A model generated the notes under the pieces. It saw only the letters and a program-made list of their open reading frames with translations, was not told the DNA's origin and made no database searches. A program made the translations under genes and the position numbers. A stretch of 64,000 nt of DNA from the NCBI RefSeq assembly GCF_022482365.1, contig NZ_JAKVPE010000001.1:1364001-1428000 (forward strand). Direction: 5' to 3'. Below, piece after piece: positions 16,083 to 64,000 of this stretch (within the stretch, counting starts at the first letter, position 1; each line of letters opens with the position of its first letter). Origin of the DNA: Limosilactobacillus sp. (GTDB taxonomy: Bacteria; Bacillota; Bacilli; Lactobacillales; Lactobacillaceae).

Positions 16083-17573
16083 ATGAAATTCACTAAACTT
16101 GTTCATCAACTGCGGAGCCAGCTAAAGATTCGTCAAATAAAATACGGTGCTAATGCTAATGTCTATCAACTACACTTAGGAGTCACTGGGCAGCAACACT
16201 TGGGAAGTGTCAATTTGCTTAAAAAACATTCCCATTTCTACCTCGTTAATGGCAACGATTGTGCAGAAATTTTTTGTCCCAGTACCATAGCGGAGAGTGC
16301 AGATTATTCAAAGTTCGATGATTATCAATGCCATATCGTCAACATTATTAACCAACTTTTTCAGCAAGAGCAGCAGGAAAATACTCATATTCTTGAAGCA
16401 CTTACTTCATCATTTCGCGAGTCCAGTATTGAACAGGTTCTTAACCAGCTGGCGCAAAAACTAAATAACTCACTCTTAATTATGAGCTCTAACTATCAGA
16501 TTATTGCCTACTCAACTCAGTTTGGTCTTCCTCCTGCACCTTGGTGTAATGTTATTAAGCAGGGGTATTCGGACGATAAAATTATCATGCAAATCAGCCG
16601 CTCCATTAGCCTTCCATTGCTTGCTGCTCATCAGCCATACAAAACCTCCATTACCAAGGGAGAAGAGCTAGTTATTAATCTTTTTAATCAGGGAAACTTA
16701 ATTGCTTTTCTAGTTCTTTTTAACGATCAACACCCAATCGATGACGACCAACGAGCCTTGCTCACTACGGCCGCTATATTTCTTAAGCAGCGCCTCCTTG
16801 CTGCCGGTTTAATCAACAATTGGAATTCACAATGGGAAGATTCACTAATTGAACTACTGAAGAACGATCGTTTTGACAGCATTCCGGCAATTCTTAATAA
16901 GCACCATCTGACGTTTCCAGCAGAACAAGCACTGTTATTTTGCCAATCGACTGGAGATCGCCCTCTATCGTTTCTCAAAATGGCCCTCCAGCATCTCCTT
17001 GTTAAAGAGTTTGGTTCAGCCTTAACCTCAGTTTATGAAGGACGAGTTGTTAGCAATTTTAAGTTGCCAATCCGGGAACTACACTGTTCTGTCACTGAAA
17101 AAAAGTTAACCAAAATTGCCAAGCAACTGAAAATTACTATGTTAGTTACCAACCCTTTTAACGATCTTAGACAAATTCATGATATGTATCAGCTCGGTTT
17201 AACGGGATGCCACCTGCTGACAATCAATCAACCAGTCGAATTTCTTTATCGACATCAGTTGCTACTGCTCTCCACCATTTCGCAGGACAAATACCATTTG
17301 TTGATCGATCCAGAGATAGAGCAATTAAAACAATATGATATCCAGCATCGAACCGCACTCTTGCCCACATTGGCAACGTTAATTAAATATAATGGTCAAA
17401 TCCAAAAAGCTGCTGCCGCACTCTATGTTCACCGCAATACCCTAACTAATCGTATCAAGCAAATTGAACGGATTAGCGGCTATAATCTAGCAAACTATGC
17501 TGACCTTTTTGCCATTAATTTTTCCTTACAGCTCAGCAATATTATTAAAAATAATCCTATAAATGGATGGTAG
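16083..17573 (+). CDS. PucR/CdaR-family transcriptional regulator
   Basis: The product is 496 residues. The C-terminal helix-turn-helix (AAAALYVHRNTLTNRIKQIE) is the PucR HTH_30 signature; the long N-terminal part would sense a metabolite. GGAGG precedes ATG 16083. The gene is divergent from the 3-hydroxyacyl-CoA dehydrogenase (260-bp shared upstream region), the usual arrangement for local regulation. Its last codon and stop (TGG TAG, 17568-17573) come partly from the inserted IS30 element. The empty site rebuilt from the target duplication reads GGA TAA, so the native protein would end one residue earlier. Confidence 0.85.
   Translation: MKFTKLVHQLRSQLKIRQIKYGANANVYQLHLGVTGQQHLGSVNLLKKHSHFYLVNGNDCAEIFCPSTIAESADYSKFDDYQCHIVNIINQLFQQEQQENTHILEALTSSFRESSIEQVLNQLAQKLNNSLLIMSSNYQIIAYSTQFGLPPAPWCNVIKQGYSDDKIIMQISRSISLPLLAAHQPYKTSITKGEELVINLFNQGNLIAFLVLFNDQHPIDDDQRALLTTAAIFLKQRLLAAGLINNWNSQWEDSLIELLKNDRFDSIPAILNKHHLTFPAEQALLFCQSTGDRPLSFLKMALQHLLVKEFGSALTSVYEGRVVSNFKLPIRELHCSVTEKKLTKIAKQLKITMLVTNPFNDLRQIHDMYQLGLTGCHLLTINQPVEFLYRHQLLLLSTISQDKYHLLIDPEIEQLKQYDIQHRTALLPTLATLIKYNGQIQKAAAALYVHRNTLTNRIKQIERISGYNLANYADLFAINFSLQLSNIIKNNPINGW
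17555..17568 (+). repeat. Left 14-bp target-site duplication of IS30 copy 1
   Basis: TCCTATAAATGGAT immediately before the element is repeated exactly at 18848-18861 after it. Confidence 0.93.
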
Positions 17574-18847
17574 ATTATAGAATGAAGTTAGCCACCCAGT
17601 TGGTGGTAAATAAAAAACGCCATTCGGCGTGACATCAGGTATCATATTAAGTGAACCAAACCTATATGAAAGGATGTCCGTCAAATGACGCACTTAAATG
17701 ATACCATGTCTACTATTTTATTGACTACTCATAAAAAGAATGCTCATCTTACTAAAGAAGAACGTGTGATGATTGCGACTTTAAAGTCGCAAGGACTTTC
17801 CAATCGCGCAATTGGTCGCCAATTAGGAGTTAATCATCAAACAATTAATAACGAGCTCAACCGTGGTACGGTCCGCCAACTTCGTCGTCAAAAATCTAAT
17901 GGTAAGATTTACGAATATTCTTACTACATCTATAGTTATGAAGCTGGTCAGGCCACATATCTTGAACATCACCGCCATTCTGGTCGTCGTCGCTTATATT
18001 ATTCTTCAAAGCAATTTTTACGATTAGCTGATCAGCTAATGCTTGGTGAGTTTGACGACCACCATTACTCCCCACAAGCGGTTATTTATAAGGCTCGAGA
18101 TTTAATGAATGATGGCACCCTGATCCCAAAGTCGGTTGTAACTTTATATCAATGGATTAATGAGGGTGTGCTTCGTACGTCCAATTTAGACCTCTTTGAA
18201 AAACCTAAACGTAAGCATCATCAAACTCATCCGCAAGCTAAAAGGTGCTTAGGGCCTAATATTGCTCAACGACCTCAAACTGCGGACCAACGGTCCGAAA
18301 TTGGCCATTGGGAACTGGATACAGTTCAGGGACAGAAAAACGGTAATGACAGTGTTGTACTAGTAATGACTGATCGCCTTTCACGAGTTAATATCACGAG
18401 TAAAATTGCTGGTAAAACTGCGCATGCAGTAAATCAGTTCTTTATAAATTTGCGCCAGAAAATGGGCACAGATGCTTACTATCGCATTTTTAAGACAATA
18501 ACCTCTGACAACGGTTCAGAATTTAGTGAGTTAACACAAGTTCACGATCATGTTTTCTATGCTGATCCGTATTCCCCTTGGGAACGTGGATCCAATGAGA
18601 TCAATAACCGGTTTCTCCGCAAGGAGATTACCAAAGGTGAAGCTATAAATAACTATAGTAGTGCTCAGATCATAGCGACTAATGATTGGATGAATCACTA
18701 TCCACGAGCTATGTTTAATGGACATTCGTCAATGGATATCTATCGTAAGGCCTTCTACCAAGAGATATCACAGCTCCATCAACCAATAATCAATTGGTCA
18801 GTATTATTTATTTGAGTCCAGTGGCTAACTTATTCTTGAAATTTAGG
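17569..18847 (+). mobile_element. IS30-family insertion sequence, copy 1 (1279 bp)
   Basis: The ends were set by comparing with the copy at 36848-38126 and by the 14-bp duplications. The element runs from GGTAGATTATAG to AAATTTAGG. Terminal regions form imperfect inverted repeats about 25 bp long that share an AAGTTAGCCAC core. It carries one transposase gene. No difference between the two copies was noticed in the transposase or in the terminal regions compared, which points to recent transposition. Confidence 0.93.
17685..18815 (+). CDS. IS30-family transposase
   Basis: 376 residues. An N-terminal helix-turn-helix region (LTKEERVMIATLKSQGLSNR, then GVNHQTINNELNRG) binds the ends. The DDE catalytic residues are in GHWELDTVQG, ITSDNGSEF and WERGSNEINNRFLRKE, the last with the IS30-type Asn/Arg context. 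The gene is intact, preceded by AAAGGATG, and identical in protein to the second copy, so it is probably active. Confidence 0.95.
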   Translation: MTHLNDTMSTILLTTHKKNAHLTKEERVMIATLKSQGLSNRAIGRQLGVNHQTINNELNRGTVRQLRRQKSNGKIYEYSYYIYSYEAGQATYLEHHRHSGRRRLYYSSKQFLRLADQLMLGEFDDHHYSPQAVIYKARDLMNDGTLIPKSVVTLYQWINEGVLRTSNLDLFEKPKRKHHQTHPQAKRCLGPNIAQRPQTADQRSEIGHWELDTVQGQKNGNDSVVLVMTDRLSRVNITSKIAGKTAHAVNQFFINLRQKMGTDAYYRIFKTITSDNGSEFSELTQVHDHVFYADPYSPWERGSNEINNRFLRKEITKGEAINNYSSAQIIATNDWMNHYPRAMFNGHSSMDIYRKAFYQEISQLHQPIINWSVLFI

Positions 18848-18861
18848 TCCTATAAATGGAT
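18848..18861 (+). repeat. Right 14-bp target-site duplication of IS30 copy 1
   Basis: Exact copy of 17555-17568. Joined to the left flank it rebuilds the native PucR 3' end with TAA as stop codon. Confidence 0.93.
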
Positions 18862-54693: not shown

Positions 54694-55107
54694 TTAGCAA
54701 AAACGCTTCGGATCCCAGTCCTGGGGGTTGGAATCGTCGGCCGTTTTCCCCGCCAGGATCTTCTGGTAGTGATTGATCCGGTCGGTGACAATTTCCTGGC
54801 GCTGCTTCAATGCGGCCAGCTCCTGAGCATTGTGCTTTTGCGCCTCCTGAAGGATCTGGTAGCGCTCCTTTACCGTGGCCGGGCCCTCCAGGCAAAGGTC
54901 GAAGTAGTGGCGAACCTCCCTGACCGTCAGCCCGCAGCCCCGTAGGAATTGGGCCGCCTTGAGCCAGTTGAGGACCTCGTCGTCAAAAATTCGGTTGCCG
55001 TTTTTGTCCCGTTTGACGTCCGGCACCAGGCCGCTGTCGGTGTAGTGACGGACCGTGTAAACCGTCATCCCCAGCTTTTCGGTTATCTCATGCATCGAAT
55101 ACATCAT
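54694..55107 (-). CDS. MerR-family transcriptional regulator
   Basis: 137 residues. MHEITEKLGMTVYTVRHYTD and GLVPDVKRDKNGNRIFDDE form the MerR helix-turn-helix and wing; residues 75-125 are a coiled coil for dimerisation. The single Cys pair (RGCGLTV, KRFC) could bind an effector. Divergent from the oxidoreductase gene; the intervening promoter has a MerR-type 19-bp spacer, so this protein is the likely activator. Confidence 0.87.
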   Translation of the reverse strand: MMYSMHEITEKLGMTVYTVRHYTDSGLVPDVKRDKNGNRIFDDEVLNWLKAAQFLRGCGLTVREVRHYFDLCLEGPATVKERYQILQEAQKHNAQELAALKQRQEIVTDRINHYQKILAGKTADDSNPQDWDPKRFC

Positions 55108-55145
55108 CAATCACTTCACTTTACCAAATTTTAAGTTCTTTCGCC

Positions 55146-55176
55146 TTGCCTCGGGTAACCCGAGCAAGAATATACT
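55146..55176 (+). promoter_or_regulatory. MerR-type promoter with 19-bp spacer and palindrome
   Basis: TTGCCT (55146-55151), a 19-bp spacer and TATACT (55171-55176). CTCGGGTAACCCGAG (55150-55164) is a palindrome inside the spacer, the arrangement that MerR-family activators untwist. Confidence 0.82.
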
Positions 55177-55223: not shown

Positions 55224-56228
55224 ATGTCAAAGATGTTACGTGTTCACCAATTCGGTAGTGTTGCTGGGGTCCAGCTGGACGATATCGAAGTGCGCCAGCC
55301 GGGTGCCGACGAAGCCCGCATCAAGGTTGCAGCCGCCGGAATCAGCGGCGACCAGCTCAACTTCATCAAGGGCCGCTTCCTGCCCGGCCAACCCGTGCCA
55401 GAAACGCCAGCCAGTCTCGGTTACGAGGCCGCGGGTGTCGTGACCGCCGTCGGCCCAAACGTTGATTCCAACTGGGTCGGCAAACGAGTTGCCCCGATCG
55501 GTCCTTACGACTTCCTGAAGTACGGCAGTTTTGGCGAAGAAATCATCGTGCCAGCGGATCGCCTGGCCGAAATTCCCGACCAGCTTCCGTTCGACCAGGC
55601 CGCGGCGCTCTGGGTGCCATACCTGACCGCCTACCCAATTGCCGTCACCAATCCTCAATTAACCCACGGCTACGTCCTGATCACCGCGGCCACCTCCACC
55701 GTTGGCCACGCCGCCATCCAGATCGCCCAGGCACGGGGCCTGGAGGTGATTGGCACGACCCGGTCCGCGGCCAAGGCCAAGTTGCTGAAGGAAGAAACCG
55801 GAATTGAAAATGTCATCGTCAGCGGCCAGGATGACTTTGTCAAGTCGATCCAGCAGATGACGAATGGTCACGGTATCGACATCGCCTTTGACCCAATCTT
55901 CGGCCAAACCATCACCGAACTCGCCGACGCCATGGCAATGGGCGGACACATCATCGAATACGGCGTGATCGCCGGGATGGAGGCCCCAATGCCCGTTCCG
56001 CAATTGCTCGGCAAGGGCCTGACGATCAAGGGCTACTCCGTCAGTGAGGTGGTTGACCATTCAGAGATTCGCCAAACTGCCAGCCAATACGTCCTCGACC
56101 ACATCACGGCCGGTGACTTTACCCCATTGATCGCTAAGGAGTTCCCACTGGCCGACTTCAAGGCCGCCTTTGATCAACTGGCAAAGAATGACCTGCTGGG
56201 CCGGGTCATTCTGACGATGGACAAGTAA
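55224..56228 (+). CDS. MDR-family quinone oxidoreductase-like protein
   Basis: 334 residues with GYEAAGVVTAVGPN, an NADPH loop ITAATSTVGHAAIQIAQ and DIAFDPIFGQTITEL. It lacks the zinc ligands of alcohol dehydrogenases, so it belongs to the zinc-independent quinone oxidoreductase branch. AAAGGATC precedes the ATG. Driven by the MerR-type promoter and cotranscribed with the Fe-ADH-like gene 10 bp downstream. Confidence 0.87.
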   Translation: MSKMLRVHQFGSVAGVQLDDIEVRQPGADEARIKVAAAGISGDQLNFIKGRFLPGQPVPETPASLGYEAAGVVTAVGPNVDSNWVGKRVAPIGPYDFLKYGSFGEEIIVPADRLAEIPDQLPFDQAAALWVPYLTAYPIAVTNPQLTHGYVLITAATSTVGHAAIQIAQARGLEVIGTTRSAAKAKLLKEETGIENVIVSGQDDFVKSIQQMTNGHGIDIAFDPIFGQTITELADAMAMGGHIIEYGVIAGMEAPMPVPQLLGKGLTIKGYSVSEVVDHSEIRQTASQYVLDHITAGDFTPLIAKEFPLADFKAAFDQLAKNDLLGRVILTMDK

Positions 56229-56238
56229 GGAGAAAAAG

Positions 56239-57357
56239 ATGAAGTTCACGATTCAACCAGCACCCCAATTAATGTACGATGCCCCCCTCGACCAGTGGCT
56301 GGGCGCACTGACCAATTTTGGAACCAAGCGGCCGCTGATTATCTTGGGCAACCAGTTCTTCAAGAGCGCTGGCTTCCTCGACAAATTGACCACCACCCTG
56401 CAGGCTAGCCAAATCATCCCGACCGTTTTCGACGACTTCCGGCGGGCCGATGTTGAAACAGCCAAGCGGGCCCGGGACCTGGCGATTGACCAGGGCGCTG
56501 ATGCGATCATCACGATCGGTGGTGGGACGGCCCACGACCTCGGCAAGACCGTCGCCCTCCTGACCGCCAATCCCAACGCCAAGCTGATGCCCATTCTCCA
56601 GGGCCAGCAGTCGGTCGCCGGCTGGTCCTACCTCCCCGTTTTCACCATCCCGACCATGCCTGGCTCCGGCTCCGAAGCCAACGGTTCCGCCCAATTGAAC
56701 GGGACCGATGGGCTGCCATACGGACTCGAAGGAATTTACCCAGCGCTGACCTATCTCCAGCCGGAGTACCTGGGCACGCTGCCGAACGTCTCCCTTATCC
56801 AAGGATCGCTCACCATCCTATCCCAGCTGACCTTAATGGACCTCACCGCCGACAGCAACCGCCTGATCGAAGGCACCCTCGATCAGTATCTGACCACCCT
56901 GGTGGAAACGCTGCAGTCCGTCGTTGACCACCAGCGAGCCAGCCATGACGAACTGGGGACCATCCTCCAGCTCAGCAGTCTCGCCATTGGTTCCCACATC
57001 CAGTACGGCAAGACGATGGACTGGGGAATTTTACTGTTGACGATGCAGGTCATGAACCGCTGGCAGGTTTCCTATTCCCAAGCCATCAGCCTTCTTTTGC
57101 CGGGCTGGGTTGCCGTCGTCGGAACTGCGACGCCCGCCTTTGATCACTACTGTCAGACGATGGGAATTGACCCCACGAACGTCGTCACGGGACTCCAGGA
57201 CGTTTACCGCCGTCTGAAGATGCCAACCCGGCTCAGCGAAGTCGGCCAGACGCCCGCCCAGCCACTCACTGCCTGGGCTGAAGAAATGGCGACTTCCGCT
57301 CTTCAGGGGGTGATGAGTGCCGAACAAATCCAAAAGATCCTCAACCTAACTGAATAA
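56239..57357 (+). CDS. Iron-containing alcohol dehydrogenase homologue without metal ligands
   Basis: 372 residues. The N-terminal Rossmann half is normal: ITIGGGTAHDLGKTVALL (residues 91-108) and FTIPTMPGSGSEANGS. The metal half is not. The GxDxxxH site reads GSLTILS (189-195), so Asp and His are Leu and Ser; the next two His positions fall at Met269 and Tyr279. It thus looks like a dinucleotide-binding protein that cannot hold iron in the usual way. AAGGAG precedes the ATG, 10 bp after the quinone oxidoreductase, and both are probably MerR-controlled. Confidence 0.75.
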   Translation: MKFTIQPAPQLMYDAPLDQWLGALTNFGTKRPLIILGNQFFKSAGFLDKLTTTLQASQIIPTVFDDFRRADVETAKRARDLAIDQGADAIITIGGGTAHDLGKTVALLTANPNAKLMPILQGQQSVAGWSYLPVFTIPTMPGSGSEANGSAQLNGTDGLPYGLEGIYPALTYLQPEYLGTLPNVSLIQGSLTILSQLTLMDLTADSNRLIEGTLDQYLTTLVETLQSVVDHQRASHDELGTILQLSSLAIGSHIQYGKTMDWGILLLTMQVMNRWQVSYSQAISLLLPGWVAVVGTATPAFDHYCQTMGIDPTNVVTGLQDVYRRLKMPTRLSEVGQTPAQPLTAWAEEMATSALQGVMSAEQIQKILNLTE

Positions 57358-57361
57358 CACG

Positions 57362-57413
57362 CCAAAGCGGGCGGCCGTGAGTAAAATCGTCATAGTCGCC
57401 CGCTTTTTTTACT
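57362..57413 (+). terminator. Intrinsic terminator
   Basis: AAAGCGGGC pairs with GCCCGCTTT around a long loop, followed by TTTTT. Confidence 0.75.
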
Positions 57414-57425
57414 TTTCGCACGCAA

Positions 57426-57462
57426 AAAAAACGGTCGATTTCGTTTTCGACCGTTTTTACGC
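57426..57462 (-). terminator. Terminator of the AlbA_2-type gene
   Basis: AAAAACGGTCGA pairs with TCGACCGTTTTT and is followed by T on the minus strand. Part of it overlaps the left 40-bp direct repeat. Confidence 0.8.
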
Positions 57463-57488
57463 CCGTTTTGCGCGCGATTTATTTGCTT
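57449..57488 (+). repeat. 40-bp direct repeat, left copy
   Basis: GACCGTTTTTACGCCCGTTT...TTTGCTT, one mismatch (A for G) against 58670-58709. It contains the last codons and stop of the AlbA_2 gene. Confidence 0.9.
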
Positions 57489-58678
57489 AAAATGTATCTT
57501 GTCGCTCTGCCCTCACCTATTTTTTCAACATAGCCTCGCTGGCTGAGCTGCTTCAAAAGCCTCAAAGCCTTAGTTCTCCCAAAGCCAGTTGCCTGACTAA
57601 TTTTCGTCGTGGTACTTGCCCCTTCGTGAATTGACTGGTAAATCCGATTTTCGTCAGCAGTCAGGTCGTCAGCAACGAATTTCAAAACCGGCAAAACGAT
57701 TTTGATTGAATTTTCAAAAATTGCAAATTGCGGCTGAACTAAGCTCTTTTGATATGAGTCTTTGATTCTTCTTATTCCGGTGCCGAATTGTTCAATTAGC
57801 CCTAGCCTAAAGAAGACGTTGGCAATAATTGGATTTCGCAAAATGGAAATCTGTCCCGCCAAGTATTCATTCTTGCTTAGCCCTTGTGGCAGTCCACCTG
57901 GTGAGGTTACTTCGATTCGGTCATCAAACATGGACACTTTAATTTGCGAATTAACACTCCAAATCCGATGAACTAATGCGTTCGCGATAGCTTCACGAAA
58001 AGCTTCTTCAGGAATCAGACTGACAACATTACGAGTCGCACCCTGAATTTCTTCGTGTTGATAGTATTGGCGATATTTTTGGAGAGCTTGGTCATATTCT
58101 TTAAGGATCGATTCATTTTCATAACTCGCCCGATCGAGCATAATGCTAATGTTCTCGCCAAAACGAATAATGTCGATTCCGCGGTAGTGGTTTTTATCGG
58201 CGAGAAGCTCACCGGCATTAGTGTAGCCATCTTTTTGCTTCAAATTAAGAGTAATCAATACGTCGGATGTTAATCTTCTAATCCCCAATTTTTCTTTCAG
58301 GGCATCTTCTAGAACATTAAATGAGAGATCTTGATTTGTCGCCGTTAAGCCGTCGTATGTTTTATTTTCACCAATCAGAATTAACTGGGATAATTCTGCT
58401 CTGTCAACTTCGATCGATGCACTATCATTTCTCTTATAGGCCTTTGATTTATACAAGTACGGGGGATGATCTCCTTGATTGACCGTTAAGGTAACCACGT
58501 TTGTCTGCTCATCAATTTTCAAATTATAGTCTGGATTCGGTTTGATCGAATCATTGATCTTATTTTCGACGTCTAGACAAAAGTCAACCGGATTCTTCAC
58601 GCCAACAATTGTTCCATCATCCTTTACTCCGAATTTGACCTCACCAGTTCCATAATTTGCAAAAGCACTGACCGTTTT
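57479..58678 (-). pseudogene. AlbA_2/Schlafen-type ATP-binding protein, 5' end truncated
   Basis: Homology runs from KTVSAFANYGTGEVKFGV (58678 down to about 58625) to the stop at 57479, some 400 residues: the AlbA_2 domain, a middle HATPase-like block with EAFREAIANALVHRIW and SPGGLPQGLSKNEYL, then a winged helix. The usual first 20 or so residues before KTVSAF are replaced by the right 40-bp repeat, and a stop (TAA) lies just upstream. No ATG, GTG or TTG precedes GTG 58600, which would give 373 residues and lose most of AlbA_2. Confidence 0.8.
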
Positions 58679-58709
58679 TGCGCCCGTTTTGCGCGCGATT
58701 TATTTGCTT
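58670..58709 (+). repeat. 40-bp direct repeat, right copy
   Basis: GACCGTTTTTGCGCCCGTTT...TTTGCTT, 39 of 40 identical to 57449-57488 and exactly 1221 bp away. It occupies the place where the start of the AlbA_2 gene should be. Confidence 0.9.
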
Positions 58710-58745: not shown

Positions 58746-59363
58746 TTACTTTGGCCGCGCCATCGAGAAGCGCTCGCCAAGCCGGCTGTAGTTTGGTCCG
58801 GCGATCCGGGAAATTGGATCGAGCGCGGTGGCGTCGACGTGATAGCGATCGTCGACAATCTGGTCCGCCAAGTCATAGTTGACGACCTCCAAGATCAGGA
58901 GATCTGCGTCGGTTTCTCCATCCCGATTCTTAATTGGCACCACTTGGTCCAGCTTAACCTCCAGGCGCGCCTTGCTTCCCGCAATTCCGGGCGTCGTTAC
59001 CCGCTGGCTATCCGCGGTGGTCAGTCCTGCAAGATCAGCCTCACTCTCGCCACTTGGCAGGCTGGCCGCGGTCATGTTCATCTGCGCCGCCAGCTGCCGG
59101 TCCACCAAGTTAACAACCCCCTCGTGCTCACGAAGCAGATTGGCCGTGGTGTCCTTCGGTTGGCCATCAATTCGCCCAATCGCCACGGTCACCAGCGGCC
59201 GCGACCCCGGCACTACCGAGAAAAAACTGAAGGGCGCCAGGTTCAAGTTGTGGTGGCCCGCATTCCAGGTGGAAATCCAGGCAATCGGCCGTGGAGCCAC
59301 CAGCCCGGACAGCAGCTTGTAGTTATCGAGCGGCGAAACCCGCTGGCTATCAATTTGTTTCAT
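58746..59363 (-). CDS. Flavin reductase family protein
   Basis: 205 residues. YKLLSGLVAPRPIAWISTWN and LAPFSFFSVVPGSRPLVTVAI are the FMN-binding split-barrel motifs of flavin reductase/NADH:FMN oxidoreductases. No signal. It reduces free flavin with NAD(P)H for a partner enzyme. It is followed 12 bp upstream by a nitroreductase gene on the same strand, so the two form an operon. Confidence 0.87.
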   Translation of the reverse strand: MKQIDSQRVSPLDNYKLLSGLVAPRPIAWISTWNAGHHNLNLAPFSFFSVVPGSRPLVTVAIGRIDGQPKDTTANLLREHEGVVNLVDRQLAAQMNMTAASLPSGESEADLAGLTTADSQRVTTPGIAGSKARLEVKLDQVVPIKNRDGETDADLLILEVVNYDLADQIVDDRYHVDATALDPISRIAGPNYSRLGERFSMARPK

Positions 59364-59375
59364 TATAAAATCCCC

Positions 59376-60137
59376 CTAACGCTTTAATAGTCCCTGCTGC
59401 TGAGCGTACTGAATAAAGGCATCCCGCGGGCTGGCAGGCCGGTCGTTCAGGGCACTGGCCCGGCCGGCAATTAGATCGGTGAAGCTGGTGTCGCGGGCAT
59501 TGGTTGTTCGACTAGCGTAATAATCGTGCAGGGTTTGATCGTAGTCGGCGAGGGTAGACTCCGCCACCCCACCGGCCGGATACTCATTTTCAAAGACCAG
59601 GGCGTCAAGGGGCAGACGCGGCTTTTCTTCCGACTCATCAGCGGGAACGCCAATCTTCAATCCCAAGACCGGCGCTGTCAGCTTGGGCAGGTGGAGCAGG
59701 TCGCTGATCGCCTGGTTGTCATTGTGGATACTGCCGAGGACGACTCCGCCCAGGCCCGCGCTTTCGGCTGCCACCAGCATGTTCTGCACCGCCAGGGTCG
59801 CATCGAAAAAGGCCTCCATTAGAATGTCGGTCGTGTCCAGCCGGCCGAGGGGCTGGTGCGCCTTTTCACGAATCTTCGCGTTCCGGTTCAGGTCGGCAAT
59901 GAAGATGAAGAGGTCCCCATTTCCGGCAATGTAGGGCTGGTGGGCAATCGCCGCGATCTGCTGTTTCTTGGTCGGATCGGTGACGTGGATAATCGAAAAC
60001 TGCTGGAGGAACTGGCCGGAAGAGGTGTGCCGGGCCACTTCGTAAAGAGTGTTCAGCTGGTCGGTCGTCAGCGGCTGATCCTTAAATTTGCGAATCGAGC
60101 GGTGATTCAATTGTGCTTCAATCGTGGAATTGTTCAT
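59376..60137 (-). CDS. Nitroreductase family protein (NfsA-like)
   Basis: 253 residues. AQLNHRSIRKFKDQPLTTDQ is the FMN-binding N terminus (RSIRKF) and SAGLGGVVLGSIHNDNQAI the second FMN loop, as in oxygen-insensitive NADPH nitroreductases. It reduces nitroaromatics or quinones. AAGGGGGA precedes the ATG. It is the first gene of a two-gene operon with the flavin reductase. Confidence 0.87.
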   Translation of the reverse strand: MNNSTIEAQLNHRSIRKFKDQPLTTDQLNTLYEVARHTSSGQFLQQFSIIHVTDPTKKQQIAAIAHQPYIAGNGDLFIFIADLNRNAKIREKAHQPLGRLDTTDILMEAFFDATLAVQNMLVAAESAGLGGVVLGSIHNDNQAISDLLHLPKLTAPVLGLKIGVPADESEEKPRLPLDALVFENEYPAGGVAESTLADYDQTLHDYYASRTTNARDTSFTDLIAGRASALNDRPASPRDAFIQYAQQQGLLKR

Positions 60138-60233
60138 GGTAAAATCCCCCTTCTTGTCACTTACTAATTATAAGTTACTGCTGAACGATCACCAAGTCAA
60201 TTGTGCCTTAGTTAAAGGACCTTAACTGCTGGT

Positions 60234-60278
60234 TAACGAAAAACGGCGGGCCACAAATGCTGGCTCGCCGTTAATTTT
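60234..60278 (-). terminator. Terminator of the redox operon
   Basis: Minus strand AACGGCGAGCCA ... TGGCCCGCCGTT followed by TTTCG, after the NAD(P)-binding gene. Confidence 0.82.
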
Positions 60279-60874
60279 TACTTGCTTGGCGTGTTGATCC
60301 CCACGCTATTCTTGGAATAAAGGCTTGGATCCGCACTCAGGCGCTTCACCAAATCGGCAATCGAGCTGACGGAGACGTTGTGCCCACCGAATGGCTGACC
60401 CTTCTCCGTGACCTCGTAGTCGACCGGGCCGGACGTGAACCAGCCGGGCCGAATGACCGTGTAGTTCAGGTCCGAGGCTTCGATCACGTCGGCCGCCTCC
60501 CGATAAGGCTGCAGGACGGGGCTATCCTTGAGATTGTCACCCATCCCCGCGGGTACCTCGTTGTAGATCCCCATCGAGGAGATGAAGAGCAAACGGGAAA
60601 CGCCATTCCGGTCCATCGCCGCCACGATCTGCTTGGCAAAGCGGCCCAGGCTGCCGAACAGGGCGGCAAAGACCACGTCCTGTCCTTGCATGGCCCGGTC
60701 GAGGTCGGCGTCGTTCATGACGTCACCGCTGATCACCGTCTCGCGGTCGCCGGCTTGGATGCGGTTCGCGGACCGGGCAAAGAGGGTCAGCGTGTCATTC
60801 GTTTCGTTCAAAAGCGTTTGCCGGACCGCACTGCCGACGGTCCCGGTTGCACCAATAATTAATACCTTAGTCAT
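60278..60874 (-). CDS. NAD(P)H-binding oxidoreductase (NmrA/atypical SDR)
   Basis: 198 residues: VLIIGATGTVGSAVRQTLL as Rossmann loop, LLFISSMGIYNEVPAGMGD and DLNYTVIRPGWFTSG, close in plan to the protein at 21595. It is the last gene of a four-gene minus-strand operon, 3 bp after the flavodoxin gene. Role probably in quinone or electrophile reduction. Confidence 0.85.
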   Translation of the reverse strand: MTKVLIIGATGTVGSAVRQTLLNETNDTLTLFARSANRIQAGDRETVISGDVMNDADLDRAMQGQDVVFAALFGSLGRFAKQIVAAMDRNGVSRLLFISSMGIYNEVPAGMGDNLKDSPVLQPYREAADVIEASDLNYTVIRPGWFTSGPVDYEVTEKGQPFGGHNVSVSSIADLVKRLSADPSLYSKNSVGINTPSK

Positions 60875-60877
60875 CGT

Positions 60878-61336
60878 TTATTCCTCCTCGAGCTCTTCCA
60901 GCCAATTCTTCAAATTCTTACCGTTGTCATTGCCGGTGAGGACCCGCAGCTGCGGATTTTCATCGGCAAACTGTCTCTCATAATCGCCGTTGTTGCCGAC
61001 GCTGGTGTAGAACGGCGCCACTTTCCCGGCGTAGTCGCCAAGGGCGTGCAGGAAAGACAATACCGGTGTCGATGGCGAGTAGGTCCAGACTGGGCCGCCG
61101 ACCAGCACCAGGTCGTAGTCGGTCAGGTCCGGCAGCTGGTTGGTCAGCTGCGGCAATTCGCCGGCGCGCATCTGCTGCTTGGCAATGTCGGCCGTCTTGT
61201 ACATGTCCCGGGAGAAGATCCCCGGGGCCACCGTCAGTTCCAGCAATGTCGAATCCGGCAGCAATTTGTGAATCCGTTCCGCCAGCCGCTTGGTCGTGCC
61301 CGACCAGGAGTAGTAGGCAATCAATGTTTTACTCAA
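60878..61336 (-). CDS. Flavodoxin-like protein
   Basis: 152 residues. IAYYSWSGTTKRLAERIHK is the FMN phosphate loop, and LVLVGGPVWTYSPSTPVLSF and APFYTSVGNNGDYE the isoalloxazine loops. It is an FMN protein for low-potential electron transfer or NAD(P)H:quinone reduction. Part of the operon of redox genes at 60278-62507; spacing to the next gene is small. Confidence 0.88.
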   Translation of the reverse strand: MSKTLIAYYSWSGTTKRLAERIHKLLPDSTLLELTVAPGIFSRDMYKTADIAKQQMRAGELPQLTNQLPDLTDYDLVLVGGPVWTYSPSTPVLSFLHALGDYAGKVAPFYTSVGNNGDYERQFADENPQLRVLTGNDNGKNLKNWLEELEEE

Positions 61337-61351
61337 TTTTAGTCCCCTCTC

Positions 61352-61738
61352 TCAATAAGTAGAAGCCTCTTGTCTGACAATCAGCCATTTCCCGTTGTCC
61401 TTTTCGTATTCGACCCTCATCTGGAGCGGCCAGGTGGCAACCGCACTGCCCCAAACGCTGGCCCGAACCCGGTTCTGGCCAACCAGGCTGGCGCGATTGC
61501 CGTCAATCTGGACGTCCTTGATCCGGTCCTCGGTCGAGGAAAGATAGTACATGTCGCCGTTTTGAATCTGGTCAATCCATTCCAGCTTGGGCTGCACGTA
61601 GCCGGTCATGTGCACCAGCTGCATTCCCGGCGCCAGAATCCGATTGAGGGTGGCGACGTCGCGGGCGACCATCGCCTCGTTCTCCATCCGGTAAAGGTTG
61701 ACCAGCTCCTGTTGGTCGTTGGCAATCATCGTTTCCAT
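61352..61738 (-). CDS. NTF2-like (SnoaL/DUF4440) protein
   Basis: 128 residues with an NTF2 cone fold: YRMENEAMVARDVATLNRIL, QLVHMTGYVQPKLEWI and GKWLIVRQEASTY. Such proteins bind small hydrophobic molecules or act as isomerases/hydratases; no catalytic set is clear. AAGGAG precedes the ATG, 1 bp after the CMD gene stop, so it is translationally coupled. Confidence 0.78.
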   Translation of the reverse strand: METMIANDQQELVNLYRMENEAMVARDVATLNRILAPGMQLVHMTGYVQPKLEWIDQIQNGDMYYLSSTEDRIKDVQIDGNRASLVGQNRVRASVWGSAVATWPLQMRVEYEKDNGKWLIVRQEASTY

Positions 61739-61739
61739 T

Positions 61740-62507
61740 TTAATTCTGCTCCTTCAGCTGGTCCGCCGCTTCGTTGACGCAACGCAGGGCGTTCAGGCTC
61801 CGCGGATAACCGATGTAGGGAATGTTTTGGGAAATCACCTTAATCAGGAACTCCCGGTCATTGCCGACGCGCATGTTGCCCTTAGCGTGGCCGATCAGCT
61901 GCGGTTCCGCACCACCCTGGGCAGAGATAAAACAGAAGGTGATCATCTCCCGCTGCCGCTTGTCCAAGCCGGACCGGGTGTAGTAGTCACCAAAACAGTT
62001 ATCGGTCAGCCAATAGTTGATGTGGCGCGTTTCGGCCGGACCGGACTTCCAGAAGCCCTTCATCCCGTCGCCGAAGATGTCAACCTGGGCTTGTTCACCA
62101 GCGGTCAGACGATCCGCCGTCGTGGTATTGGCCTGTCCTTCCAGTGGCAGCTTGATGCCGCGCTGTTCAAAAATCTCATTGGTAGCCTTGAGGAAGGGGA
62201 AGACCCGGCCAATCCCAAGGTAGGCGACCGCCTGGTAGACGATTTCCTTGATCTCGACCGGGGTCAGGCCAAAGTTCATTGCTGCCGGAACCATGGCCTT
62301 AAATTCGTCAATCCCCTGACAGCCGAGCAGCGTTGCCAAAATCGTCATGAAGCGGGTCTTGCCATCTAGGTCGTCGTGGTTGACCACCTCATCGAAGGCA
62401 AAGTTGTCGAAGCGTTCGATAAACTCAGGGTCGGTCCGCTTGAAGTCGGACTGGTAGCCCGGAAACATCTTTTCGTGGTATGCCTGTGCGTTTTTACTAA
62501 TTGCCAT
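61740..62507 (-). CDS. Carboxymuconolactone decarboxylase (CMD/AhpD-like) family protein
   Basis: 255 residues with two CMD repeats (KTRFMTILATLLGCQGIDEF and MITFCFISAQGGAEPQLIGH). The AhpD CxxC is absent, so it is not a peroxidase partner of that type. The family includes gamma-carboxymuconolactone decarboxylases; the substrate here is unknown. It is the first gene of the redox operon. Confidence 0.85.
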   Translation of the reverse strand: MAISKNAQAYHEKMFPGYQSDFKRTDPEFIERFDNFAFDEVVNHDDLDGKTRFMTILATLLGCQGIDEFKAMVPAAMNFGLTPVEIKEIVYQAVAYLGIGRVFPFLKATNEIFEQRGIKLPLEGQANTTTADRLTAGEQAQVDIFGDGMKGFWKSGPAETRHINYWLTDNCFGDYYTRSGLDKRQREMITFCFISAQGGAEPQLIGHAKGNMRVGNDREFLIKVISQNIPYIGYPRSLNALRCVNEAADQLKEQN

Positions 62508-62644: not shown

Positions 62645-62675
62645 TTGACTTAGAGTTTACTCTAAGTAGTACGAT
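62645..62675 (+). promoter_or_regulatory. MerR-type promoter of the truncated MFS gene
   Basis: TTGACT (62645-62650), 19-bp spacer and TACGAT (62670-62675), with the palindrome ACTTAGAGTTTACTCTAAGT (62648-62667) in the spacer. The architecture matches that at 55146-55176, but the palindrome differs, so another MerR protein is expected. Confidence 0.75.
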
Positions 62676-62699: not shown

Positions 62700-62987
62700 A
62701 TGATGATCCTATTGGGAATTGGCCAGGGTCTAGCGTTCAGCCTACAGACTAGCTCCGGGGTGGCAAATGCGGGCCCGGCGATTGCCGGCTCCGCGTCCGG
62801 GGTCGTCAACGTCGTCCACCAACTCGGCAGCTCCGTGGGGATGTCGATCACGGTGGCCCTGACCAGTGGAATTGCTTCCCGATCGGCTGCTTACAACACG
62901 GCTGTGTTAATCATGCTGGTGATCGCGCTGATCTCGCTGGCCGCTTGCTTTAACGTCGCCCGGGTAACACGGAAGGCTGCTAAATGA
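62700..62987 (+). pseudogene. MFS transporter, only the C-terminal third present
   Basis: 95 residues: LLGIGQGLAFSLQTSSGVAN, SASGVVNVVHQLGSSVGMSI and a final Arg/Lys tail, equivalent to membrane segments about 10-12 of a DHA-type drug exporter. A perfect AAAGGAGG and a MerR-type promoter precede the ATG, so a deletion appears to have removed most of the gene while keeping its start signals. Product probably non-functional. Confidence 0.78.
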
Positions 62988-62989
62988 AA

Positions 62990-63034
62990 ACAACCCTCAA
63001 GCGCAACTATTCATTGCGCCTGAGGGCTTTCTTA
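62990..63034. terminator. Bidirectional terminator
   Basis: CCCTCAAGCGCAA (62994-63006) pairs with TTGCGCCTGAGGG (63014-63026), followed by CTTTCTT. It separates the MFS fragment from the convergent LysR gene. Confidence 0.88.
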
Positions 63035-63916
63035 TTTCTGAAATTGTTCCGCCAGCTTGTCGGCGAAGGCCTCGATGTAATAGCCCGAGTTGTCTTTCTT
63101 CCAATAGGCGTAGTACTTCTGGTGCAGCGGGCGCTTGCCGTTGTAGAGCGGGAGGATCCGCGAGAGCTGCGGGTCGATCAGGTCCTTCGTCCGGCCGTTA
63201 ACCAAGATGTATCCCTGGTTGGCCACGACCAGCGCCTGGGCCTCGCCAAAGGTGCTGACCACCCGGAAGGCGCTGTGGATCCCCAGGATATCCCGGTAGT
63301 AGTCCTCCTCTTCCCCCGCCTGCTGGGGATTGACCACCAGAATGCACGGCAGGTCAGCCAGCTCCGCCGTGGTGATCTTTTCCCGGTCGGCAAACTTGCT
63401 CGAACTGACCACCGCCATGAAGTCGGTCTCCGTCAGCAGGCGGTTGTTGTACTCGTCCGACAGTGCCCGCCGTTGGTCGGAGAAGTTCAGATCGACCCGA
63501 TCGGACCGCAGCAGCTTGAACAGCTCCTCGTGCATCCCGCTGGTGATCTTGACCTCCACGTTCGGGTACTGCTTGGAAAATTCGGCCAGGGCCTGGAGAA
63601 ACTCCTGGGTGCCAAAGTTGCGCAGGTAGCCCAGGTGCAGGACGTACTGCTCACTGCCCCTGGCGATCCGCTGGGTTTCGGCCCTGAGCTGATCAAGCTG
63701 CTTGACGATCTGCTGAGCCTGGCGGTAGAAATATTCGCCGGCCGGGGTCACGGTGAAGCTGCGGCCCTTGCGCTCCAGCAGTTTCACACCCAAGTTGTTC
63801 TCCAGCTCCTTGACCTGCTGGGAAATCGCCGATTGGGAAATGTTGTTGTCCAGAGCGGCCGCGGTGAAGCTGTGGCGGTCCACCACCGCGATAAAGTAGC
63901 GCATCTGTTGGTCCAT
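63032..63916 (-). CDS. LysR-family transcriptional regulator
   Basis: 294 residues from ATG 63916, behind GGAAGGAAAG. MRYFIAVVDRHSFTAAALDN and ISQSAISQQVKELENNLG are the helix-turn-helix; residues 90-294 are the effector domain. Its orientation is away from the window end. It may regulate the neighbouring CMD/flavodoxin operon, but that is inference from proximity; no shared promoter is seen. Confidence 0.87.
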   Translation of the reverse strand: MDQQMRYFIAVVDRHSFTAAALDNNISQSAISQQVKELENNLGVKLLERKGRSFTVTPAGEYFYRQAQQIVKQLDQLRAETQRIARGSEQYVLHLGYLRNFGTQEFLQALAEFSKQYPNVEVKITSGMHEELFKLLRSDRVDLNFSDQRRALSDEYNNRLLTETDFMAVVSSSKFADREKITTAELADLPCILVVNPQQAGEEEDYYRDILGIHSAFRVVSTFGEAQALVVANQGYILVNGRTKDLIDPQLSRILPLYNGKRPLHQKYYAYWKKDNSGYYIEAFADKLAEQFQK

Positions 63917-64000
63917 TGATCTCACTTTCCTTCCGTGCTCGTTCATGGTTCCATTGTACCCCATCGAACAGCCACCAAGACAAGTAACAAGTCACAATGT

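Follow-up and report, generated by a model that had tools for sequence, protein, structure and literature searches.

What can a protein with the fold of an iron-containing alcohol dehydrogenase (Fe-ADH) do when every metal ligand of its active site has been replaced? The question is raised by a gene in the window, by which we mean the whole stretch of 64,000 nucleotides of Limosilactobacillus DNA that was analyzed. A preliminary description had reported, at 56239-57357, an Fe-ADH homologue lacking all four ligands and coupled to a quinone oxidoreductase gene under a MerR-type promoter, and had offered three readings of it: a non-canonical reductase, a different metal site or an NAD(P)H-sensing pseudoenzyme. 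The coordinates are exact: on the plus strand the gene starts with ATG at 56239 and extends over 372 codons to a stop codon at 57355-57357. Its product is called P0001 here. The gene and five codons of the pocket are as follows:

56239..57357, plus strand: metal-less Fe-ADH homologue P0001, 372 amino acids (PF00465 match, predicted fold)
56812..56814, plus strand: codon of Thr192, at the position of the metal Asp (profile and MAFFT alignments)
56824..56826, plus strand: codon of Gln196, at the position of the first metal His (profile and MAFFT alignments)
57031..57033, plus strand: codon of Leu265, at the position of the second metal His (profile and MAFFT alignments)
57043..57045, plus strand: codon of Met269, at the position of the substrate-contacting His, not a ligand (alignments; role as given in PMC5125639 and PMC8836905)
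57073..57075, plus strand: codon of Tyr279, at the position of the third metal His (profile and MAFFT alignments)

Family, fold and metal site of P0001

P0001 genuinely belongs to the Fe-ADH (type III) superfamily, in its YugJ/butanol-dehydrogenase branch. Pfam recognizes its N-terminal dinucleotide domain (PF00465, residues 23-161, 87.7 bits against a cut-off of 31.3), and the C-terminal helical Fe-ADH domain (PF25137) scores 18.2 bits, below the cut-off of 27. The 15 NCBIfam models listed for the protein all stay below their cut-offs, the top one being 4-hydroxybutyrate dehydrogenase with 63.8 bits against 500. An AlphaFold model, which the preliminary description had proposed as a check, was predicted from a nine-row alignment with a pLDDT of 83.2 and a pTM of 0.83 and takes the two-domain Fe-ADH fold. 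Its best match in the PDB is TM0820 (1vlj; Z 39.4, 365 residues, rmsd 3.5, spanning model residues 1-372), followed by YugJ of Bacillus subtilis (7w9x/7w9y/7w9z; Z 39.1), and the maleylacetate reductase 3w5s is a weaker match than TM0820 (Z 30.2). Over the whole two-domain fold, the likeness of the models to YugJ and TM0820 is thus about Z 39 for P0001 and about 45 for its relative from Megasphaera (see below). Both predicted folds are expected to follow Fe-ADHs, because the alignments given to the predictor contain ligand-bearing Fe-ADHs. In the sequence alignment P0001 has a nine-residue gap in the N-terminal helix region.

How is the metal site composed? In YugJ, the Ni ligands are named as Asp194, His198, His267 and His281, and His271 contacts the substrate (PMC8836905); His267 of FucO is likewise described as a substrate contact, not a metal ligand (PMC5125639, section 3.7). 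Two alignments were made, one of a two-row profile (P0001 and its Megasphaera cousin) with YugJ, TM0820 and a Fusobacterium BDH, and the other, by MAFFT, of the same two proteins with 79 relatives. In both, the four YugJ ligands correspond, in the order given, to Thr192, Gln196, Leu265 and Tyr279, that is, the metal Asp and all three His are substituted in P0001. They confirm the claimed absence of all four ligands, as does, for the cousin, a pairwise alignment with YugJ. The residues assigned by eye in the preliminary description need partial correction: Tyr279 holds, Leu191 and Ser195 fall one residue short of Thr192 and Gln196, and Met269 corresponds not to a ligand, whose place is taken by Leu265, but to YugJ His271 and FucO His267. 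The substrate His is therefore lost too; in the Megasphaera cousin it is Gly.

In the 79 comparison homologues, a set selected for their similarity in which near-duplicates occur (33 are left under 70% mutual identity), column 192 is Asp without exception, and columns 265 and 279 are each His in 79/79, a conservation that marks the changes in P0001 as more than chance. At column 196, 61 of them have His and 18 have Gln. At column 269, the substrate His is found in 67 of these 79 ligand-bearing homologues and Gln in 12, and hence it is not strictly required. Rows excluded before counting were the gene itself or its raw context (L004, L006, L070, L071), those with no tblastn match at 1e-3 (L003, L005, L026, L028), AdhE-like proteins of more than 520 amino acids (L001, L037, L039) and duplicates (L036, L038, L051, L072, L093); L096 is the same place as L073 and was not added. 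The 18 rows with Gln for the first metal His keep the Asp and the other two His and represent a natural one-ligand variant, which includes L002 from the window's own genome (C1:1555187) and genus relatives.

Could the ligands of P0001 lie elsewhere in its sequence, misplaced by the alignment? Over long alignments it is no more than about 14-27% identical to members that have the ligands, which would leave room for such an artefact. However, three alignments agree, and the pairwise alignment of the cousin with YugJ (3e-58) is ungapped at the metal sites; an artefact is thus extremely improbable. Alternatively, other residues of the cleft might hold a metal, as the related glycerol dehydrogenases use another ligand set (PMC5125639, section 3.7). 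The pocket argues against such a different site: its five positions are Thr, Gln, Leu and Tyr plus Met in P0001 and Thr, Gln, Tyr and Tyr plus Gly in the cousin, with no Asp, Glu, His or Cys at any of them in the alignment, and the His described as common to glycerol dehydrogenases and Fe-ADHs is Tyr279 in P0001. This one of the three original readings, otherwise a fair list, is accordingly to be given very little weight.

Metal-dependent alcohol dehydrogenase chemistry by P0001 is very unlikely. Because of the pocket residues present, metal-polarised hydride transfer as in YugJ is not expected; demetallated YugJ is described as giving no reduction of HMF (PMC8836905). Three of the five pocket residues, Thr192, Gln196 and Tyr279, are common to P0001 and the cousin, and all three are polar. 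Three identical residues of five are not improbable at 29% overall identity, and the notion of a conserved pocket rests on one pair, since only two members are known.

The coenzyme cleft

Is the coenzyme site better preserved? The dinucleotide loop had been thought intact, and this is true of its GGG and of Asp100. The Ser found in 79/79 other homologues has become Thr97, so that the GGGS coenzyme motif is GGGT in P0001, and it is GGGC in the Megasphaera cousin. Elsewhere in the cleft more has gone. The equivalents of YugJ Asn71 and Lys160, each present in 79/79 others, are lost: the former is Arg69 in P0001 and Val in the cousin, the latter is Gln in the cousin, and neither protein has any Lys within residues 145-175. 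These two nicotinamide-ribose contacts are thus missing from P0001 and the cousin alike. The GGGS loop for the 2'-phosphate is lost in P0001, which has Gly37-Asn38-Gln39-Phe40 instead, whereas the cousin has a GGES loop with Ser at YugJ position 41. Because of this loss, the sequence disfavours a preference of P0001 for NADPH, and Asn38 would occupy the position governing the choice between NAD and NADP (PMC5125639, section 3.6).

The contacts of YugJ to NADP named in PMC8836905 are Ser41, Asn71, Gly96-98, Ser99, Asp102, Thr138 and Asn147, and further Gly149, Lys160, Asn179 and Thr182, a 13-residue set that omits Val183 and the main-chain contacts of the GGGS loop. By our own mapping from the alignments, P0001 retains seven of these 13 (GGG, Asp100, Thr139, Asn148 and Thr180), and so does the cousin (GGG, Asp, Thr, Asn and the Ser at 41). 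The columns are not all strict: that of Asn148 is Asn in 53 of the 79 others, and that of Thr180 is Thr in 43. P0001 therefore has GGG-x(3)-D and the equivalents of Thr138 and Asn147 in common with YugJ and TM0820, and differs from YugJ in all four Ni ligands, His271, Asn71 and Lys160. Taken together, the alignments show that the cleft of P0001 and the cousin is only in part intact, and that a GGG/Asp/Thr/Asn core has been kept in both.

A distant relative in Megasphaera

One clear relative of P0001 was found, a protein of 395 amino acids with 29% identity encoded by Megasphaera sp. MJR8396C (genome G816; NZ_KQ958174.1, 4431 bp; L093:814-2001), a genus placed in Negativicutes. With Thr, Gln, Tyr, Gly (for His271) and Tyr along its sequence, it has lost the ligands as totally as P0001. 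It alone of the two keeps the N-terminal helix region and the GGES loop, and its C-terminal Pfam domain is over the cut-off with 51.9 bits. Its predicted model (pLDDT 86.0, pTM 0.85) matches YugJ with a Z of 45.6, TM0820 with 44.6 and 3w5s with 31.2. The gene is flanked by a MarR regulator and an alpha/beta hydrolase (Abhydrolase_6 33.1 bits, DLH 30.7), neighbours that differ from those of P0001.

Are the two proteins truly akin? They group with support of 99/98 in a tree of 62 of the 81 rows, from which 19 near-identical or partial rows were omitted, and with 100/99 when the five pocket columns were masked (35 of the 81 rows, below 70% identity). The branch of P0001 is very long, with 4 changes per column versus 1.45 for the cousin, and its composition is unusual, so that long-branch attraction between them is possible. 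Outside the pocket columns, P0001 and the cousin have 21 rare residues in common, while the highest number that either has in common with any other row is 16. The masked-column grouping and these rare residues are supportive, not decisive, of kinship as judged from sequence.

Because a distant cousin shares the ligand loss, P0001 seems to have taken on a different function that has been conserved, and not simply to have decayed. Decay would mean an Fe-ADH that has lost its function and drifts, its frame open by chance, and the long branch, the C-terminal domain below its Pfam cut-off and the presence of P0001 at E <= 1e-20 in 1 of 397 sampled family genomes, the window's own, are what it would predict. 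However, about 11 stops are expected over 372 codons in random DNA of the same composition, and a frame that stays open over this length on so long a branch argues for selection. The gene also lies 10 bp after another gene with AAGGAG before its start, its GC3 is ordinary, its fold is well predicted, and the relative with equal ligand loss is as distant as 29% identity. Decay is thus unlikely. A recent horizontal gain was considered and rejected on base composition, as the GC of 0.591 and GC3 of 0.748 match most neighbours (GC3 is 0.71-0.79 in eight of nine other genes measured); an older transfer is possible, given the sporadic presence of the gene.

Further members were sought at several levels. 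At 1e-12, P0001 has matches in 2 of 50 genomes of the genus, and the match in the other genome has all ligands; at 1e-16 it has matches in 12 of 395 genomes of the order, where the 11 others likewise carry all ligands. The phylum sample gave matches at 1e-16 in 19 of 398 genomes, and among the 18 others a single one, G816 (117 bits), is without all four ligands. Within the family of G816, 12 of 17 genomes, itself included, match the cousin at 1e-35, and at all 20 other places, of which G816 has four, the Asp and three His are present. G816 and four more genomes, out of 61 in its order, contain a match to the two-row profile at 1e-50, and in those four no ligand is missing. The 22 genomes searched in the class of G1005 yielded no additional metal-less member. 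Non-exhaustive scans of genome contigs gave no closer relative among 80 short-peptide pattern matches with P0001 alone, and with the two-row alignment only the Megasphaera contig (1 of 59); viral contigs gave none among 88 pattern matches with that alignment. Searches of plasmids and phages gave four records each with P0001, and 42 plasmid records with the cousin, at 20-31% identity among the matches listed. In the open-access literature on Fe-ADH pseudoenzymes and metal-free relatives, a body that leaves subscription papers mostly uncovered, no member lacking all four ligands appeared among the matches listed.

The probable operon and the possible role of P0001

In what context does the gene stand? 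The elements around it are as follows:

54694..55110, minus strand: divergent MerR-family regulator, start uncertain (TTG 55110 or ATG 55107/55104; Pfam MerR_1)
55146..55176, plus strand: MerR-type promoter candidate (TTGCCT, 19-bp spacer, TATACT, inverted repeat)
55224..56228, plus strand: quinone oxidoreductase-like MDR protein (PIG3-like), 334 amino acids (Pfam ADH_zinc_N 82.6 bits, ADH_N 51)
57364..57410, plus strand: likely terminator after the two genes (hairpin 57364-57406, then a short T run)

The regulator matches MerR_1 with 51.8 bits over 54694-55101, and its best NCBIfam model is NmlR (NF041849; 67.6 bits, below the cut-off of 175). MerR promoters typically have 19-20 bp spacers that hold a palindrome (PMC9909328). 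The candidate carries an inverted repeat with 7-bp arms, CTCGGGT-A-ACCCGAG, at 55150-55164. Hexamers combined with arms of at least 6 occurred in 0.06% of 20,000 simulated 113-bp stretches, and the whole window has two such sites versus a simulated mean of 0.35, which supports the MerR-type promoter of the preliminary description. By itself, the spacing of the hexamers does not exceed chance (8 seen versus 4.9 expected). When the repeat was counted inside the 19-bp spacer only, the site at 55146-55176 was absent at arms of at least 6; the second promoter test counted inverted repeats across the hexamers. A sigma-70 scan with 16-18 bp spacers found nothing in this promoter region. A second MerR-like pattern was seen at 62645-62675 (+), with TTGACT, a 19-bp spacer, TACGAT and a 9-bp inverted repeat, ACTTAGAGT-TT-ACTCTAAGT. 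It lies upstream of an ORF of 95 amino acids (62700-62987), possibly the remnant of a truncated gene, whose match to the MFS transporter profile is confined to the end (300-346/347; 21.6 bits, below cut-off).

The quinone oxidoreductase-like neighbour had been recognized earlier, and its Pfam matches confirm it; TIGR02824 scores 178 bits, below its cut-off of 296.8. The P0001 gene follows it after a gap of 10 bp that overlaps the AAGGAG ribosome-binding site. Downstream, the predicted fold of 57358-57420 has -25.6 kcal/mol, and a terminator pattern scan with a loop limit of 8 bases found no terminator. The short gap, the promoter candidate and the hairpin with its T run suggest that the two genes are co-transcribed. 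No Rfam element near the operon reached its gathering score. The idea that the genus generally has the quinone oxidoreductase locus, and that the Fe-ADH-like gene is an addition to it, was rejected: among 47 genomes only one other has a match at E <= 1e-60 (48% identical), and by eye no Fe-ADH-like protein was seen among the seven ORFs listed around that match.

Several features of the surrounding DNA may be recorded here. Just downstream of the operon, the gene at 57479-58600 (-), with HATPase_c_4 and helix-turn-helix matches, is AT-rich (GC 0.407 and GC3 0.406, versus 0.56-0.61 and 0.71-0.79 in nine other genes), and a 40-base stretch with one difference occurs near both of its ends (57449-57488 and 58670-58709); it is perhaps a recent arrival. 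A minus-strand run of mostly redox-type genes at 58746-62507 holds flavin reductase-like, nitroreductase, NAD(P)H-binding and flavodoxin genes as well as DUF4440 and carboxymuconolactone decarboxylase-like ones, and is followed by a LysR-family regulator (63032-63964). An IS30-family transposase stretch at 17567-18848 has 97.5-99.5% identity to nine Limosilactobacillus reuteri plasmid records out of the ten listed, and 93.3% to the tenth.

Which known proteins offer a guide to the role of P0001? The maleylacetate reductases (GraC 3w5s, MacA 3hl0 and PcpE) belong to the same superfamily. The DLH/alpha-beta hydrolase family is a pathway partner of these enzymes, and the gene beside the cousin is DLH/alpha-beta hydrolase-like. 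Maleylacetate reductases are described as active without metal, the loss being ascribed to the Asp (PMC5125639, section 3.7). PcpE is reported to keep a cluster of basic residues (five His, two Lys) that has the motif LHHKLCHTLGG, and to rely on His172 and Lys238 (PMC5741723). P0001 itself was rejected as a maleylacetate reductase, since the motifs LHHKLCHTLGG and LSTPEQ given in that source are both absent. FeADH2 (cd08183) and some HEPD members are predicted to be metal-free because the Asp is Gln (PMC5125639, section 3.7); compared by that description only, the Asp is the one change mentioned for them, whereas in P0001 the Asp and three His are all changed.

The reading that we prefer, at just under an even chance, is that the pocket has been remodelled around Thr192, Gln196 and Tyr279 and carries out metal-independent chemistry. 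An active site without metal would have been rebuilt on the Fe-ADH fold, and P0001 would be produced together with the quinone oxidoreductase from an operon that the divergent MerR regulator may induce under electrophile or carbonyl stress, as the MerR-type promoter and the quinone oxidoreductase suggest. P0001 would still bind NAD(H) in its cleft, and Tyr279, Gln196 and Thr192 would polarise the substrate in the metal's place, these being the least certain steps. The polar residues shared with the cousin, the kept nicotinamide contacts Asp100 and Asn148, the enzyme neighbours and the metal-free maleylacetate reductases all speak for such chemistry. What weakens the case for hydride transfer is that both proteins lack the substrate His and the equivalents of Asn71 and Lys160.

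A non-catalytic binding role is about equally open, and we regard it as a strong competitor that falls somewhat short of even probability. The protein would then be a pseudoenzyme with a preserved fold that takes up NAD(H), ADP-ribose or some other ligand but converts nothing; it would serve the neighbouring quinone oxidoreductase, or the regulation of that enzyme, as a partner, allosteric subunit or sensor. The absence of the metal, the substrate His and both nicotinamide-ribose contacts from the two homologues, with the GGG/Asp/Thr/Asn core retained, would be explained in this way. There is also the Fe-ADH homologue ErcA (NF041833), named a regulatory protein in NCBIfam, which scores 37.5 bits with P0001, below the cut-off of 550. 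It was reportedly presented by Hempel et al. in 2013, to go by their title, as an alcohol dehydrogenase-like regulatory protein, and is thus a precedent by name and title only. However, the Megasphaera gene has no quinone oxidoreductase neighbour, so that no common partner is conserved, and Thr192, Gln196 and Tyr279 are polar and identical in the pair.

Fe-ADH family members without metal are already in print, namely the maleylacetate reductases (PMC5125639). More tentatively than the chemistry itself, P0001 and its cousin may stand for an unnamed metal-free class of Fe-ADHs found in two classes of Bacillota (Negativicutes and Bacilli), in which all four ligands are replaced, a Thr/Gln/Tyr pocket performs NAD(H)-dependent or other chemistry, and redox-stress regulators are in control. 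Pfam would label both proteins as iron-containing alcohol dehydrogenases, which would be misleading. If it is true that the four ligands and the substrate His have been replaced while the fold and the loop core were kept, the pair would represent either a new way of catalysis without metal on this scaffold or the conversion of a dehydrogenase into a binding protein.
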